From a gamma proteobacterium symbiont of Taylorina sp. (GTDB lineage: Bacteria; Pseudomonadota; Gammaproteobacteria; GRL18), in contig JAHXIV010000016.1 of assembly GCA_025655455.1 (NCBI GenBank), forward strand, positions 1 through 64,000: a stretch of DNA of 64,000 bases, given 5' to 3'. Below the pieces are notes generated by a model. The model was not told the DNA's origin, searched no databases, and worked only from the letters and a program-made list of their open reading frames with translations. The position numbers were made by a program, and so were the translations under genes. Positions within the stretch are counted from its first letter, which is position 1. The number at the start of each line of letters is the position of its first letter. Of the stretch, positions 56,315 through 63,980 are shown piece by piece.

Positions 56315-57007
56315 TTATATCTCTAGTTTATTTTCATCAACTTGAGCATGATTATTTTCCAGCAGTTTTAACCAACCATTACGTTTAAATTCAGCAGTAA
56401 CCTTACTGGCACTTTCCGTGGTAATTCCCAATATATTCCCAATATCTTCACGTGTCGGCATATAAAAGGTATCATCCAGTGAATTTTTCGAAAGTAGAAG
56501 TAATAAGCGTGAGACTCGTGTTCTGATTTTTCCTGTTGACAATTGTGTTATCCAGAGATCAGCCATATTAAGCATTTTCTGCCAACGGGCGATTAATGCA
56601 TTATGGATTCCAGGGCTGTTCTGCTGCAGCAGTGTGATAACAGAATGAGGAATGCGACAAAGCTGAACAGGATCAAGAGTAATTGCTTTATGCTCTGCCA
56701 CTTGTGTATTCAAACTTTCAATACCCAGCAGTTCACCCTGACCTAAAATTCGTACAATTCTTAAATTTCCATCCGGCAGATATTGTACCAATTTGACCAG
56801 ACCACTGCGAATAGTATAGACAAATTCCATATGATCACTTTGACCATAGACGATAGATCCGGGTTTATAACTGATGTCATCAATTGGCTGGTGTATTTGA
56901 TCAAAATCTGACTTTTGTAAATCTGAAAATAAAACCAGATGACGAATTGCACAATTTTCGCAACGTTCAGCTCCCTTCCAGGCATTTCCAATTTGAGTGG
57001 TTTTCAT
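56315..57007 (-). CDS. Crp/Fnr-family regulator with an incomplete FNR cysteine set
   Basis: A 230-residue regulator with an N-terminal Cys motif, a cNMP-binding-like beta barrel (about 40-130), a dimer helix and a C-terminal helix-turn-helix (TREDIGNILGITTESASKVT, about 183-202). Cys16 and Cys19 (RCENCAIRHL) and Cys117 (QLCRIPHS) align with E. coli FNR Cys20, Cys23 and Cys122, but the position of Cys29 is Val25. Three of four cluster ligands are thus kept; His23 could substitute. It is divergent from the multiheme cluster, which it may control. Confidence 0.87.
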   Translation of the reverse strand: MKTTQIGNAWKGAERCENCAIRHLVLFSDLQKSDFDQIHQPIDDISYKPGSIVYGQSDHMEFVYTIRSGLVKLVQYLPDGNLRIVRILGQGELLGIESLNTQVAEHKAITLDPVQLCRIPHSVITLLQQNSPGIHNALIARWQKMLNMADLWITQLSTGKIRTRVSRLLLLLSKNSLDDTFYMPTREDIGNILGITTESASKVTAEFKRNGWLKLLENNHAQVDENKLEI

Positions 57008-57252: not shown

Positions 57253-58563
57253 ATGTCTTTCACAAAAAAGCGAGTAGCTTTCCTGGCCGGTATTTCTGCC
57301 AGCCTGTTAGGTTCACTATTTATCATCAACTCAGCTTCTGCTAACACCAAAGCCAATGACAAGTCTATTCATCATATTTCAGCCTCCGTCTGTAAAACCT
57401 GTCACAAGGAAACATATAAGCAATGGAAAGGTTCTATGCATGCCAATAGTACAGCATTTAACGATCCAATTCATGGTACATTTTATCGCAAAGTAGTTGG
57501 CGATCCCGGCAAAGAAGGCGTTAAAATGAAAAATGGCAAATACCCCGTTTGCCTTCAATGCCATGCGCCCAATGCTGCTAAGGATAAAGTCACTAAACTC
57601 GATTCCAAGCCAGCCTATGCCGAAGGTGTTAACTGTATTGCCTGTCATACTTTAAAAACCTTTAAGGGTACTAAGGGAAAAAATGGAAAACTGAATCTGG
57701 GTCTGAAAGCTTATGAATATACAGATAAAATTCAGGGAACCGGTCGTAATTCCAATCATCTGCTGTCTAATTTAACTGCTGGAGGAGATGAATTTGGTTT
57801 CACTGATGGCGATGATGATAAAAAGCCAAATCCGCATTTAGGAAAATCCGTCACTGTAGATGGTAAAGAGATTCCAGCTCTGCCAATGGAAAGTAACCCT
57901 AAGCAATTAAGAACCTCAGATGCCTGTATGGGTTGTCATGACAAGAGAAATAATAGTCATGGTGTGCCTCTTTGTGCAACGGGTGATGAATATATCTCCA
58001 GTAATGCCAAGGCTGATTGTCTTTCCTGCCATATGCCTACCACTGGTGGTAAATCAGATCATAGTATGGGTGGAGGACATAGTTTAGCCATGCTGCAGCG
58101 TTCAGTCGTCTTCTACATGGAAAGTAAAAAAGAAGGTAATATGATCAAGTCAGTAGTAACGATGCAAAATAAACAGCCGCATACCATGCCTACTGGCGCA
58201 CCATTTAGAAATCTATACCTGAAAGTCACCGCCTATGATAAAACGGGTAATGTCGTTTGGGAAAATGCCAAGGGACATCCAGGTAAAACAGATAAAAAAG
58301 CATTCCTGAAATTGACCCTGGTGGATGCAGATGGTAAACCAACCGGACCACCGACTGCTAAGGGTCAGGGTAAAGATACTCGCCTGAAAGCTTTTGAAAA
58401 ACGTGATCTTAACTATGAGATTCCAGCCAAGGATGTGGTTTTAGTTCGTGCCGAGCTTTACTACAACCTTCTATGGCCTGGACTGGTTAAAAAGTTCAGT
58501 AAAAAAATCCCTGCAGATGTCACAGCCCCCAAGCTGATAGCAACATCTGAAAACGCTCTGTAA
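57253..58563 (+). CDS. Pentaheme c-type cytochrome (cytochrome c554-like N terminus)
   Basis: A 436-residue exported protein with a signal peptide (cut after SASA near residue 30). Five CXXCH heme sites are seen: CKTCH, CLQCH, CIACH, CMGCH and CLSCH. The N-terminal half resembles cytochrome c554-type proteins, and the C-terminal third (from about 300) has a beta-rich segment without heme (TMPTGAPFRNLYLKVTAYD). It heads the plus-strand cytochrome cluster, with a strong AAGGGG ribosome site. Substrate and partners are unknown; electron transfer with the octaheme proteins is likely. Confidence 0.85.
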   Translation: MSFTKKRVAFLAGISASLLGSLFIINSASANTKANDKSIHHISASVCKTCHKETYKQWKGSMHANSTAFNDPIHGTFYRKVVGDPGKEGVKMKNGKYPVCLQCHAPNAAKDKVTKLDSKPAYAEGVNCIACHTLKTFKGTKGKNGKLNLGLKAYEYTDKIQGTGRNSNHLLSNLTAGGDEFGFTDGDDDKKPNPHLGKSVTVDGKEIPALPMESNPKQLRTSDACMGCHDKRNNSHGVPLCATGDEYISSNAKADCLSCHMPTTGGKSDHSMGGGHSLAMLQRSVVFYMESKKEGNMIKSVVTMQNKQPHTMPTGAPFRNLYLKVTAYDKTGNVVWENAKGHPGKTDKKAFLKLTLVDADGKPTGPPTAKGQGKDTRLKAFEKRDLNYEIPAKDVVLVRAELYYNLLWPGLVKKFSKKIPADVTAPKLIATSENAL

Positions 58564-58672
58564 GCAAAGCAATCTTTGTAATACTTTTTACATGGATGCT
58601 TAAACAAATAGATTGCTCAGTACAATCTATTTGTTTAACGGATCAAAAACTTATTTATCGAGTGGGGTGATT

Positions 58673-60307
58673 ATGTTTTTCTATCAATCGAAAAACAGTG
58701 CACGAGTGCCTGGTATATTATGTACCTTACTCTTTGCTGCCTGTTCAAATGGCTATGCAAATGTTGAAGAAATAGCAGCAATATCCTCAACCGCTGATCA
58801 CTCTAAATTTGAAATTCTACAAAAGCAATTTGCCACCGGACCTGATGTAACCAAAGCCTGTTTAAGCTGTCATACTGAGGCTAGTACACAATTACATAAA
58901 ACCAAACACTGGAACTGGACATTTACCAACCCAGATACAGGTCAGGAAGTGGGTAAAAAATCCATTATCAATAACTACTGCCTGGCAATTAATAAGAATT
59001 ATGCCCGTTGCACCAGTTGTCATATCGGTTATGGCTGGAAGGACAAAAATTTCAACTTCACTTCACAGGAAAATGTAGACTGTCTGGTTTGCCACGACAG
59101 CACAGATACCTACAAAAAATTCCCTACTGCTGCAGGACATCCAAACTATAAGGATAAAGCTTTTCCAAAAGGTAGTAAAAAAATCTGGAAGGCACCGGAT
59201 CTCTCTCTTATTGCACAAAGTGTAGGTAAGTCACGTCGCGAAAACTGTGGTGCCTGTCATTTCTATGGTGGTGGTGGAGATGGAGTCAAGCATGGTGATC
59301 TGGATTCTTCTATGACCAATCCTGACAAACAACTGGATGTTCATATGGGTGTTGACGGACTTAATTTTACCTGTAGTGAATGTCACACCAGCGATGGCCA
59401 TGATGTCAAAGGAAGTCGTTATAACATCACCGCAAAGGATACCCATGGTATTGATATTCCGGGTCGTGATGATAATAGCCGTGCAAGCTGTGAATCCTGT
59501 CATGGCATGACTCCTCATCCTGAAACCATCAATAATAAAATTAATGATCATACCGATAAAGTAGCTTGTGTGACCTGTCATATTCCAACCTATGCTCGTG
59601 GTGGTGTCGCCACAAAAATGTGGTGGGACTGGTCAACAGCCGGTAAAAAAGATAGCGATGGCAAATTGATTAAAAAGAAAAATAAAAATGGACAGCTCAC
59701 CTATCATACTAAAAAAGGGAGTTTTGAATGGGGTGAGAATCTGCTGCCTGAATATGACTGGCTATCCGGTAATATAAGGTACAAGCAGCTGAATGAAAAA
59801 ATTGACCCCAATCGGGTAGTGGCCTTAAATACTTTCTCAGGCTCCTATGATGATCCGGATGCACGTATCTGGCCATTTAAAATTATGCGTGGTAAACAAC
59901 CTTATGACAAGGGTAATAATACTCTGACATTACTACATTTATTTGGTAAAGAAAAGACAGCTTACTGGAAGTCTTATAACTGGAATAATGCAATTAAAGC
60001 TGCCATGGATGAGGCACAGGCGAACTATAGTGGTGAATACGGCTTTATAGAAACCACCTTACACTGGCCTCTGGCACACATGGTCGCCCCTAAGGAACAA
60101 TCTTTGTCCTGCGGTGAATGTCATAGTAAGGAGGGACGACTGGCAAATTTGACTGACTTTTATCTGCCCGGTCGAGATAACAACAAATGGCTGGACATTA
60201 TTGGCTGGCTGGCTGTTTTAGGCACTCTGGGCGGTGTGTCTCTACATGGAGTAATACGTTTTTTCTTTTCCAGAAAGAAGATTGCAAAAAAAAGGAGCAA
60301 CCAATAA
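58673..60307 (+). CDS. Octaheme cytochrome, tetrathionate-reductase (OTR) family, membrane-anchored
   Basis: A 544-residue protein from the ATG at 58673 (GGGG upstream); a TTG at 58613 is less likely. It has a signal sequence near residue 30 and eight CXXCH sites: CLSCH, CTSCH, CLVCH, CGACH, CSECH, CESCH, CVTCH, CGECH. Order and spacing fit the OTR family of Shewanella, which reduces tetrathionate, nitrite and hydroxylamine in vitro. Unlike the soluble Shewanella enzyme it has a C-terminal membrane helix (WLDIIGWLAVLGTLGGV) and a basic tail. The stop overlaps the next start (TAATG), tying it to a cytochrome b. Confidence 0.9.
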   Translation: MFFYQSKNSARVPGILCTLLFAACSNGYANVEEIAAISSTADHSKFEILQKQFATGPDVTKACLSCHTEASTQLHKTKHWNWTFTNPDTGQEVGKKSIINNYCLAINKNYARCTSCHIGYGWKDKNFNFTSQENVDCLVCHDSTDTYKKFPTAAGHPNYKDKAFPKGSKKIWKAPDLSLIAQSVGKSRRENCGACHFYGGGGDGVKHGDLDSSMTNPDKQLDVHMGVDGLNFTCSECHTSDGHDVKGSRYNITAKDTHGIDIPGRDDNSRASCESCHGMTPHPETINNKINDHTDKVACVTCHIPTYARGGVATKMWWDWSTAGKKDSDGKLIKKKNKNGQLTYHTKKGSFEWGENLLPEYDWLSGNIRYKQLNEKIDPNRVVALNTFSGSYDDPDARIWPFKIMRGKQPYDKGNNTLTLLHLFGKEKTAYWKSYNWNNAIKAAMDEAQANYSGEYGFIETTLHWPLAHMVAPKEQSLSCGECHSKEGRLANLTDFYLPGRDNNKWLDIIGWLAVLGTLGGVSLHGVIRFFFSRKKIAKKRSNQ

Positions 60308-60903
60308 TGTCCCGGGTAATAATGTATAACGGATTTGAACGTTTCTGGCATTGGAGTTTATCTGTATTAATACTGATATTGTTAGTCACCGGCTTTAATA
60401 TTCATGGTACTTATCAGATTTTTACCTTCGAACAGGCTGTTGATATCCATATTATCTGCTCCTGGCTGCTGATGGGCTTACTGGTCTTTGTTATATTCTG
60501 GCATATGACTACTGGAGAATGGAAACAATACATCCCCTCCAGTACTAATAAGTTGATAGCAATGATGAAGTACTATGCAATTGATATTTTTATGGGTGGC
60601 GGACATCCCCACCACAAAACTCGTCAGTCAAAACTCAACCCCATGCAGCGGCTGGCTTATCTGTTTCTGCATGTTGCAATTACACCAGTCGTCTGGATAA
60701 GTGGTCTGCTTTATCTATATTACCCCTACTGGGACAGTTTTGGTTTAGCAGGCTTGAGTTTAGGTACTATTGCCATGATTCACACGGCTGCTGCATTTGC
60801 AGTCATTGCTTTTTTAATTGTCCACCTCTATCTGGCTCTGACCACCAGTAAAGAACCACTGGGTTATCTTAAAGCCATGATTCATGGATATGAAAACGAA
60901 TAA
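60307..60903 (+). CDS. Cytochrome b subunit (hydrogenase/thiosulfate-reductase type)
   Basis: A 198-residue integral membrane protein read from the ATG at 60307. It has four membrane helices with candidate heme-b His residues: FERFWHWSLSVL, VDIHIICSW ... FWHMTTGEW, LFLHVAITPVVW and MIHTAAAF ... VHLYLAL. This is the fold of NiFe-hydrogenase and thiosulfate-reductase cytochrome b subunits, which exchange electrons with quinone. The TAATG overlap with the OTR gene suggests the two form one membrane quinol-linked reductase. Confidence 0.87.
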   Translation: MSRVIMYNGFERFWHWSLSVLILILLVTGFNIHGTYQIFTFEQAVDIHIICSWLLMGLLVFVIFWHMTTGEWKQYIPSSTNKLIAMMKYYAIDIFMGGGHPHHKTRQSKLNPMQRLAYLFLHVAITPVVWISGLLYLYYPYWDSFGLAGLSLGTIAMIHTAAAFAVIAFLIVHLYLALTTSKEPLGYLKAMIHGYENE

Positions 60904-60950
60904 CAGTATCTTTCACAACAACTATATTATAACAAGCAATGGAGTATCCA

Positions 60951-62405
60951 ATGAATTGGTCAAAACAGACCCGTTTGAATTTACTGACTTTCAGTGCGTT
61001 TCTTTTATTCAGTCAGTCAACTATAGCAGCAAAAGTAACTCTTGACTCCTCTAGCTGGGGAGCAGAAGAGGGAAAAGCCTGTGTTGAATGTCATTCAAAA
61101 TCTTCCGCAGGTCTGACTCATCAATGGAAAAACAGTGCTCATGCTCAAGCCAATGTGAATTGTCTGGATTGCCATCAGGCCTATGAAGATGATGCGGATG
61201 CCATGGAACATGAGGGTAGTGTAATCGCCACCATTGTTTCTCCAAAAGATTGTGGACGCTGTCATACAGCAGAATTGAAGCAGCAGCAGGGTTCTGTACA
61301 TACCAAGGCGGTTTCTGTCATCAAAAACCGAATGCCGGCACTTGCCGAACACTTTGGCAGTCTTTCTATAAATGATGCCGGCTGTGCAAAATGTCATGGT
61401 TCAGAAGTTAAGGTGAGAGGTGATGGAACTCTTGATCCAACTACCTGGCCAAATAGCGGCATTGGTCGTATCAACCCCGATGGTTCTAAAGGTTCCTGCT
61501 CAGCCTGTCATGGACGTCACCAGTTTTCCAAAGCACAGGCACGTGAGCCTGCTGCCTGTACATACTGCCATTCTGGCCCTGATTCTCCTGATAAATCGAT
61601 CTATGAAACCTCTAAGCACGGTATGATGTATGAAGCCCATAAGGGAGAAATGAATATGGGTAGTGATAGCTGGATTGCGGGCAAGGATTACTCAGCAGCA
61701 CCAACCTGTGTCAGCTGTCACATGGGTGCAGCAGGTAAAATGAAATCCACTCATGATGTGGGTATGCGTGATTCTTGGAATCTCAATGAAGCCGTGTCAA
61801 CACAACAATATCTGGTAATTTTTGACGATGGTGAAAAACGTGAATTATCAGGTTCAGATCCGATTCCCCGTAAAGGTGAAAGTATTTCTAAAATGGATGG
61901 CAGTATGGCTAAGGTCAAAGCAGTCGCTTCCCCAAAACGTCGTCGTAGTGCAATGGCAAAAACCTGTCTTGAATGTCATAGTAAAAACTTTGCCAATAAT
62001 GCTTTGCGGCAATTTGATGAGGTTGTAGAGTTATATAATGAAAAATATGGCAAGCCGGCACGAAATATTATGCAGGCTCTTTATGCTGAAAATCTTCTAA
62101 CACCTTTGCCTTTTGATGAACCTCTGGAAATCTCCTACTGGAACCTTTGGCATAAAGGTGGAACCCGTGCTCGTCATGGTGCCGCTATGGGCAGCCCAAG
62201 TAATACCTGGAAAGGTATGGCTGATGTCGGCAGCCTATTTTACGGCAAGTTTCTTATTCAGGTGCTTGCAGTTGCCGGTCAGGAAAAAGGGGATGCATTG
62301 ATCAAAAAATATATCAATGAATCAGAACATCATCAGTGGTTAAATCACCCTGATAAATCCAATCCAATTTTGGGTTATGGCAAAGGAAGCAGTGATGAAG
62401 ATTGA
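60951..62405 (+). CDS. Octaheme cytochrome of the hydroxylamine oxidoreductase (HAO) family
   Basis: A 484-residue exported protein from the ATG at 60951 (GGAG six bases upstream; an ATG at 60939 precedes it). The signal sequence is cut near STIAA. Eight CXXCH sites are present: CVECH, CLDCH, CGRCH, CAKCH, CSACH, CTYCH, CVSCH, CLECH. KSIYETSKHGMMYEAHKG between hemes 6 and 7 is typical of HAO relatives. After heme 8 the ARHGAAMGSPSNTWKG region shows no Tyr where, by my reading, ammonia oxidisers have the heme-crosslinking Tyr, so a reductive role is favoured. It overlaps the NapC-like gene by 11 bases, like epsilonproteobacterial HAO loci. Confidence 0.87.
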   Translation: MNWSKQTRLNLLTFSAFLLFSQSTIAAKVTLDSSSWGAEEGKACVECHSKSSAGLTHQWKNSAHAQANVNCLDCHQAYEDDADAMEHEGSVIATIVSPKDCGRCHTAELKQQQGSVHTKAVSVIKNRMPALAEHFGSLSINDAGCAKCHGSEVKVRGDGTLDPTTWPNSGIGRINPDGSKGSCSACHGRHQFSKAQAREPAACTYCHSGPDSPDKSIYETSKHGMMYEAHKGEMNMGSDSWIAGKDYSAAPTCVSCHMGAAGKMKSTHDVGMRDSWNLNEAVSTQQYLVIFDDGEKRELSGSDPIPRKGESISKMDGSMAKVKAVASPKRRRSAMAKTCLECHSKNFANNALRQFDEVVELYNEKYGKPARNIMQALYAENLLTPLPFDEPLEISYWNLWHKGGTRARHGAAMGSPSNTWKGMADVGSLFYGKFLIQVLAVAGQEKGDALIKKYINESEHHQWLNHPDKSNPILGYGKGSSDED

Positions 62406-63024
62406 TCGTTTCCTGCCGACCTTTATTACCCGGCATGTATTATTCGCCCTGATTTTTGGAGGGGTTTGTGGTATTGGTTTTATTTTGTTTCTAATTGAAT
62501 TTGATCACTATACCAGTACTGAAGAATTTTGTACTTCCTGTCATTCAATGGAACTGGCTGCAGAGCCTTATCGAAATTCCAGCCACTACAAACCAGAATC
62601 CGGAGTACGGGCAAGTTGTGGGGACTGCCATGTATCTGAAGGTGTGTTATCTGCTACCTGGGATCATTTTATGGGCAGTAAGGATCTCTATAAGCAAATC
62701 TTTGGCCATGATTATGATGATCCGGTTGTTAATGCATTACGTTTGCCGAAAGCCGCTTTTGATGCGCGCAAATGGTTCAAAAAAAGAGATTCTGCCACCT
62801 GTAAGAAATGTCATGTGAAAGAAGCAATCTATGGTTCCAGAACCGATACCTTACAGATACATCTGGAAGACGCTAAAGACAAAACCTGTATCGAGTGTCA
62901 TTACAATCTGGTTCATCGTATAATTCCTGATGAAAAGGTCTTTAAGCAGGACAAATGGAATGCCATGATAGAAGAAGAATTTGGCCTGGAAAAGGGATCT
63001 GCAAAGAAAATTCTGGATGATTAA
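62395..63024 (+). CDS. NapC/NirT-type tetraheme membrane cytochrome
   Basis: A 209-residue protein from the ATG at 62395 (GGAAG upstream; an ATG at 62377 is less well placed). One N-terminal membrane helix (about 15-35) is followed by four CXXCH sites: CTSCH, CGDCH, CKKCH, CIECH. This is the layout of NapC/NirT/NrfH quinol dehydrogenases that pass electrons from the quinol pool to periplasmic reductases. Overlap with the HAO-like gene makes that protein its likely partner. Confidence 0.9.
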   Translation: MKIDRFLPTFITRHVLFALIFGGVCGIGFILFLIEFDHYTSTEEFCTSCHSMELAAEPYRNSSHYKPESGVRASCGDCHVSEGVLSATWDHFMGSKDLYKQIFGHDYDDPVVNALRLPKAAFDARKWFKKRDSATCKKCHVKEAIYGSRTDTLQIHLEDAKDKTCIECHYNLVHRIIPDEKVFKQDKWNAMIEEEFGLEKGSAKKILDD

Positions 63025-63070
63025 ATTAAACTGGCTTTGGAAGCTCCAGGCCCATAATTGAGAAAGTATT

Positions 63071-63316
63071 ATGTTATTAGCCTTAGGTTGTAACACAATG
63101 CGCGAAGGCGTTATTGTAACGATTATATTTTTTATTGCAGGCATTTTGGTTATTCTTGCCGGCGCAAATATTGTACCTGCAATGTGGCATTTGAATCATA
63201 TTGTCGTATTTGCAGGTTTTTTATTGTTATTACTTGCCCCGATAGTGCTGGTTTCTACATTTTTGCTCTCAGTACTGCCCAAAGCTAAAGAAAGAATGGA
63301 TGAATGCGAGCACTAG
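63071..63316 (+). CDS. Small two-helix membrane protein, unknown (copy 1)
   Basis: An 81-residue protein with two hydrophobic helices (VTIIFFIAGILVILAGA and VVFAGFLLLLLAPIVLV) and a charged C terminus ending DECEH. It is related to the next two small proteins. A conserved ALGC-x-T start is shared with copy 2. It follows the tetraheme gene by 46 bases and overlaps copy 2 by 13 bases. The function is unknown; it may stabilise the membrane cytochromes. Confidence 0.65.
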   Translation: MLLALGCNTMREGVIVTIIFFIAGILVILAGANIVPAMWHLNHIVVFAGFLLLLLAPIVLVSTFLLSVLPKAKERMDECEH

Positions 63317-63510
63317 GCTGTAAGACAATAAAAGACGGGATTATCACTGCAATTATTTTTTTTATAACCGGTCTTAGTCTGTTTCTGTCAGGATTTTTGG
63401 TAATACCCGAACTTTGGTATCTTCCTCACATTATCATTACAGCAGGTATAATAATTTTAATCATGGTGCCGGTTATACTGCTGGCGACTTATCTGAAAAA
63501 CCATCATTGA
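63304..63510 (+). CDS. Small two-helix membrane protein, unknown (copy 2)
   Basis: A 68-residue protein clearly related to the preceding one: it starts with RALGCKTIKDGIITAIIFFI, keeps the W-x-L-x-HI turn (LWYLPHIIITAG) and has a second helix (IIILIMVPVILLATYL). The C terminus is shorter, ending in KNHH. It overlaps the previous gene by 13 bases, so translation is coupled. It ends one base before the convergent copy 3. Confidence 0.6.
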   Translation: MRALGCKTIKDGIITAIIFFITGLSLFLSGFLVIPELWYLPHIIITAGIIILIMVPVILLATYLKNHH

Positions 63511-63511
63511 T

Positions 63512-63751
63512 TCAATGTTGACAGCTATCCAGGCGCTGATTTACTTTAGGGATCATAATGGCAATAAATGTTGCTAAAACGATCATCAAGGCAAAGCTGA
63601 TGGCAAAGAAACCAGTATAAATAAAGATCACCGGCAGAATTGATTCATAGCTTATAAATCGAGCAACAACTTCCAGTGAAGTACCAGCAAATAACAATAT
63701 TGCAGATATCATAATTGATTTTTTCATTACATCGCAAGCTGATTTAATCAT
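63512..63751 (-). CDS. Small membrane protein, unknown (copy 3, opposite strand)
   Basis: A 79-residue protein from the ATG at 63751, with AGGAAG six bases upstream; a longer frame to 63778 lacks a good site. It has two hydrophobic helices and a tail ending QRLDSCQH, like ERMDECEH of copy 1. It is encoded tail-to-tail with copy 2. The similarity is weaker than between copies 1 and 2, so paralogy is likely but not certain. Confidence 0.55.
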   Translation of the reverse strand: MIKSACDVMKKSIMISAILLFAGTSLEVVARFISYESILPVIFIYTGFFAISFALMIVLATFIAIMIPKVNQRLDSCQH

Positions 63752-63980
63752 GATGGCTTCCTTTATTAAAGATAACACACCATCTATATTAACAAATACT
63801 TATATAATAGTCAACGAAAACTACGGGTAAACCCTAGGCCATCCTGGTTTTTGATAAGCCATATGAAAGCAAAGCAGCAATAAAAACAAGCCAATAATTT
63901 CGTAGTCCCTACTGCATTAATATTGATCTTATTTGTTAATATTATTACTCACTATGAGTATACATTTTCAGGCTGTAAAT

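Follow-up and report, generated by a model that had tools for sequence, protein, structure and literature searches.

The window (the whole stretch of DNA analysed, 64,000 nucleotides long) carries on its forward strand the genes for a pentaheme c-type cytochrome (57253..58563), an octaheme tetrathionate reductase (OTR; 58673..60307), a b561-type cytochrome b (cytb; 60307..60903), an octaheme cytochrome of the hydroxylamine oxidoreductase (HAO) type (P0004; 60951..62405) and a NapC/NirT-type tetraheme quinol dehydrogenase (62395..63024). Translation of the four c-type cytochromes gave 5, 8, 8 and 4 CXXCH motifs, the total of 25 counted in an earlier note on this DNA, and none was present in the b561-type cytochrome. 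The CXXCK motif, as found in the active site of NrfA or octaheme NiR, is absent from all five proteins. The likely start positions were corrected to 58673 for OTR, 60307 for cytb, 60951 for HAO and 62395 for NapC, and both of the gene overlaps described earlier were borne out: the last base of the OTR stop codon (60305-60307) is also the first of the cytb ATG at 60307, within TAATG (60305-60309), and the HAO stop codon (62403-62405) lies beyond the NapC ATG at 62395, an overlap of 11 bases. With its endpoint of 63751, the range given in the earlier note also covers the genes of three small membrane proteins, here termed sm1, sm2 and sm3, that were not described there.

The OTR protein, which has a C-terminal membrane helix, matched TIGR04315 over positions 1-440 of 440 (636 bits, cut-off 375) and PDB 1sp3 with an E value of 6.6e-115. 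Its residues K226, C123 and D223 align with Lys153, Cys64 and Asp150 of 1sp3. Lys153 is the ligand of the active-site heme, and Cys64 and Asp150 are the key residues that go with it; the lysine ligand is also given in PMC12285233. The neighbouring cytb (PF01292, 77.8 bits) is the likely quinol-facing partner of OTR, and the same kind of cytochrome adjoins OTR in 25 of the 30 gammaproteobacterial OTR loci outside the cluster, one of which is a second OTR-cytb pair elsewhere in the window's own genome (G000:C28; L113:5968-8329). The pairing has been published for Thermosulfurimonas (TDIS_1882-1883; PMC4911364) and Beggiatoa (BOGUAY_2386; PMC6449678), which share with the window the octaheme family and the cytochrome b gene that comes after it; unlike the window genes, these pairs are not reported within an HAO-NapC cluster in either paper. 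The Beggiatoa OTR reduced both nitrite and tetrathionate in vitro, with tetrathionate activity far above nitrite activity (PMC6449678), and hydroxylamine reduction in vitro by OTR is attributed to Atkinson 2007 as cited in PMC4911364.

The HAO-type protein matched PF13447 (85.6 bits), and its best PDB match was 4qo5 (E 2.1e-37), the Ignicoccus octaheme cytochrome; AlphaFold gave a model of poor quality for it, with a mean pLDDT of 60.7. The NapC protein has an N-terminal membrane helix and four CXXCH motifs (PF03264, 128.7 bits) and would be the quinol-facing partner of the HAO type. Proteins with over 60% identity to P0004 were grouped as HAO family A. Within a sample of 369 genomes of the class it was found in four, which belong to three families, and NapC comes next in every family-A locus that was read. 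The loop that carries the heme P460 tyrosine in nitrifier HAO (Tyr467) was located with reference to L177, a nitrifier-type HAO of the class sample with its WTY tyrosine at 467 in 1fgj numbering. No tyrosine was present there in any of the 13 family-A proteins, the loops reading PSNT-W, SANMAWW or SANHTWW. Loss of this tyrosine in Nautilia HaoA has been cited as a mark that separates N-oxide-reducing from oxidising members (PMC3701875). Since P0004 lacks the heme P460 tyrosine, which is cross-linked to heme 4 in the nitrifier hydroxylamine oxidoreductase, it should reduce rather than oxidise, and N-oxide reduction by the HAO type is strongly predicted.

The pentaheme cytochrome aligned with cytochrome c552 of Thermochromatium tepidum (PDB 5ze8) over residues 23-434 (E 2.5e-161, 540 bits). 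The two proteins share five hemes, a heme-free C-terminal domain and end-to-end similarity; in the cluster described here the gene accompanies HAO-NapC. The pentaheme is likely to be a periplasmic low-potential carrier. A second pentaheme, 49% identical, is encoded elsewhere in the window's genome (L157:6757-8076).

Directly 3' of the pentaheme gene lies a hairpin (58601..58637, forward strand) of 15 perfect pairs with a 7-base loop (z -5.6). All 10 loci of 10 have a hairpin at this position, with z values from -2.1 to -7.3, both where OTR and where HAO is the next gene, and no hairpin of note was found at six other junctions. Across the five alignable loci, seven of 18 pairs showed two-sided changes, the position being kept and the sequence not; a search of Rfam found no match. 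Because a T-run is missing after most of these hairpins, partial termination or 3'-end stabilisation, which may raise the pentaheme above the enzymes, appears likelier than full termination. In four relatives (L035:2009-2027, L042:1986-2004, L043:4553-4571 and L044:4850-4868) a conserved block with an inverted repeat precedes the pentaheme gene by about 130 bases, but it was dropped as a feature of the cluster as the window does not have it. A divergent gene at 56315-57007 encodes a Crp/Fnr-type regulator that has two of Fnr's N-terminal cysteines. It was rejected as a dedicated cluster regulator because it was not found beside the other clusters.

Behind NapC, the region 63071-63778 encodes three paralogous two-helix proteins for which Pfam gave no match. 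The first two are on the same strand as the cluster: sm1 (63071..63316) has 81 residues with an invariant Cys7 and an invariant Cys79-x-His81 end, and sm2 (63304..63510), of 68 residues, is a paralogue without the Cys-x-His end that scored 70 bits with the sm1 profile. The convergent sm3 (63512..63751, reverse strand) keeps the Cys-x-His end and, like the other two, the Cys near the N terminus; its membership of the cluster is unsure. Strong sm1 matches were obtained in only three of the 369 class genomes, each of which carries this cluster. The name sm1 stands for a small membrane-protein family limited to this cluster among the genomes sampled.

The relatives in which the cluster was sought are Gammaproteobacteria MAGs, some of them from symbionts of two deep-water lucinids, Bathyaustriella thionipta and Lucinoma myriamae. 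The authors who described these symbionts assign them to the family SZUA-152 of Thiohalomonadales and regard them as sulfur oxidisers that have a periplasmic nitrate reductase (PMC9938160). The order pentaheme-OTR-cytb-HAO-NapC is intact in six genomes besides that of the window (L033, L035, L036, L037, L041 and L043) and runs on into sm1, and parts of it are found in eight more loci. The cluster is truncated by contig ends in L034, L038, L040 and L046; L039 has lost most of OTR, and in L087 OTR is interrupted. Two loci, L042 and L044, read pentaheme-HAO-NapC-sm1 with OTR and cytb missing between, OTR being present elsewhere in both genomes. In L045, from another genus, pentaheme-HAO-NapC-sm1 is followed by OTR-cytb, and in L088, from another family, HAO-NapC is divergent from pentaheme-OTR-cytb. 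The genes flanking the cluster vary from locus to locus, which suggests that it moves as one block. The earlier suggestion that the pentaheme could be a carrier common to both octaheme enzymes can be refined accordingly: it is retained with HAO-NapC in the two clusters that lack OTR-cytb, and the wider pentaheme family also occurs solitary, outside such clusters.

Trees of the two octaheme proteins gave different pictures. Family-A HAO forms a single clade (15 rows, SH-aLRT 100), and the cluster OTRs are split: nine of them, including the one from another family, form a clade (support 100/99), and the L045 OTR groups with a non-cluster OTR (support 100/99). Forcing the cluster OTRs into one group cost 54 log-likelihood units (p-AU 0.0016). 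The split of the cluster OTRs implies either that OTR-cytb and HAO-NapC were brought together on two or more occasions or that the OTR pair was exchanged once. We regard this as the best indication that the modules are linked in function. In the class sample, OTR or a remnant of it was present in 4 of 4 family-A genomes against 8% overall, a contrast that the p value of 3e-5 overstates as the genomes are interrelated. Within the order alone the association of family-A HAO and OTR was not significant (10/11 vs 9/13, p 0.33), because OTR is common there.

The window's genome also contains a NapA operon, so nitrite should arise in the periplasm, as well as a cd1-type NirS. The enzymes looked for on the way from nitrite to ammonium were the two usual ones, NrfA and the hydroxylamine reductase Hcp. 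No NrfA scored over the cut-off in the window's genome, and neither that genome nor any of 24 genomes from the order gave a match to prismane/Hcp. The cluster of L038 is directly followed by nap genes in convergent orientation. Beside NirS is the gene for a 921-residue protein with a NapC-like N terminus and six CXXCH motifs in all (L176:10696-13461).

What the earlier note had called unusual was that one cluster contains octaheme proteins of two families, both with a quinol-facing partner of their own. The partners, b561 cytochrome for OTR and NapC for the HAO type, were confirmed, and it is the union that is unusual: neither pairing is so alone, OTR with cytb being the norm outside the cluster and HAO with NapC being the reverse-HURM module. 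In the latter system, known as HaoA with CycB/NapC from Nautilia profundicola and Campylobacter (PMC3701875), the described features agree with those of the window's genome in an octaheme protein without the P460 tyrosine, a NapC-family partner, Nap and no NrfA. There, however, Hcp/Har finishes hydroxylamine in the cytoplasm, and the window cluster adds OTR-cytb, the pentaheme and sm1. The reverse-HURM module is thus present and the published full pathway is not, there being no Hcp. A further parallel is the orange octaheme cytochrome BOGUAY_0691 of the Guaymas Beggiatoaceae, by description an HAO-related octaheme protein of a marine sulfur oxidiser with nap genes nearby, for which nitrite reduction was measured; the NapC, pentaheme and OTR neighbours found here are not reported for it (PMC6449678). 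The parts are ordinary, both modules being known, and their combination is uncommon, apparently recurring and new. New points are the repeated joining of OTR, the absence of Hcp from 24 genomes of the order and of NrfA despite Nap, the restriction of sm1 and the hairpin in 10 of 10 loci.

From the genes, their families and key residues, the conserved gene order, the absence of NrfA and Hcp and the presence of Nap, all of them observed, we infer in which direction the reactions run, on which substrates, by which electron routes and in what order the two enzymes act. The interpretation that we favour, to which we give slightly better than an even chance, is that this is a respiratory nitrite-ammonification cluster made from two known quinol-fed modules, one of the reverse-HURM type and the other OTR-cytb. 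Nap of the same genome would supply the nitrite. NapC would take electrons from quinol and hand them, directly or via the pentaheme, to the non-P460 HAO type; this would act in the periplasm on nitrite (or NO), with hydroxylamine probably at least part of the product. The b561 cytochrome would feed the membrane-anchored OTR, which may reduce nitrite, hydroxylamine and/or tetrathionate. Hydroxylamine from the HAO type, Hcp being absent, would be finished to ammonium by OTR, the best candidate for this step because NrfA and Hcp are both missing. Our confidence in ammonification by the HAO-type and OTR pair is moderate, and in a serial hydroxylamine route between the two octaheme reductases it is weak. 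A more specific version is doubtful: a periplasmic line, evolved at least twice, that leads from nitrite (or NO) to hydroxylamine at HAO-NapC and on to ammonium at OTR-cytb in place of NrfA and Hcp, the pentaheme being its carrier and sm1 a new membrane accessory.

Ammonification is favoured by the absent P460 tyrosine, the HAO/NapC overlap, the OTR key residues, the nitrite reduction by the Beggiatoa OTR in vitro, Nap, the missing NrfA and Hcp, the nap genes of L038 and the repeated joining. Counting against it are the lack of OTR-cytb in the L042 and L044 clusters and its decay in L039, the cd1 NirS by which nitrite can go to NO, and the far higher activity of the Beggiatoa OTR with tetrathionate (PMC6449678). 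That same preference would fit two independent terminal reductases, HAO-NapC for nitrite/NO and OTR-cytb for tetrathionate, co-located for common regulation in anaerobic sulfur oxidation and with no intermediate in common. OTR-cytb is indeed solitary in most genomes, the modules have been gained and lost separately and the organisms are sulfur oxidisers (PMC9938160), but taken alone this gives no reason for OTR-cytb to have joined specifically the HAO module on two separate occasions. Such independence, close to the parallel routes of the earlier note, is a serious contender that we nevertheless hold to be unlikely.

The module losses and rearrangements could also be expected if the cytochrome genes were neighbours without a functional link, together by chance or common transfer. 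The order is, however, kept in seven genomes despite differing chromosomal surroundings, and the divergent arrangement in another family and the second independent joining also speak against mere proximity, which we regard as improbable. In nitrifiers, a NapC-family cytochrome is the partner of HAO (PMC3701875), and the HAO type of the cluster might similarly run forward, oxidising hydroxylamine or NO and passing electrons via NapC to the quinone pool for detoxification or energy gain; with the P460 tyrosine absent, this is the most improbable of the readings. If the ammonification reading is true, sulfur oxidisers of sediments, vents and clam gills would be able to make ammonium from nitrite with neither NrfA nor Hcp, and surveys based on nrfA only would score such bacteria as capable of denitrification alone. 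For OTR, on whose physiological substrate there is no agreement, it would also suggest a partner in vivo and a substrate to test.

Two further HAO-type families, B and C, were seen in the class. A 'PDY' tyrosine in their sequences was considered as the P460 tyrosine and set aside because, when aligned with nitrifier HAO, it falls close to the site but not with certainty on it. Both have neighbours other than those of family A, for example a nine-heme protein fused to b561. Family B, a second and more widespread HAO-type family, turns up in numerous genomes across both the order and the class and lies beside the protein with nine hemes and a b561 domain at L048:6158-9785 and in L050, L052, L053, L055, L096 and L097.
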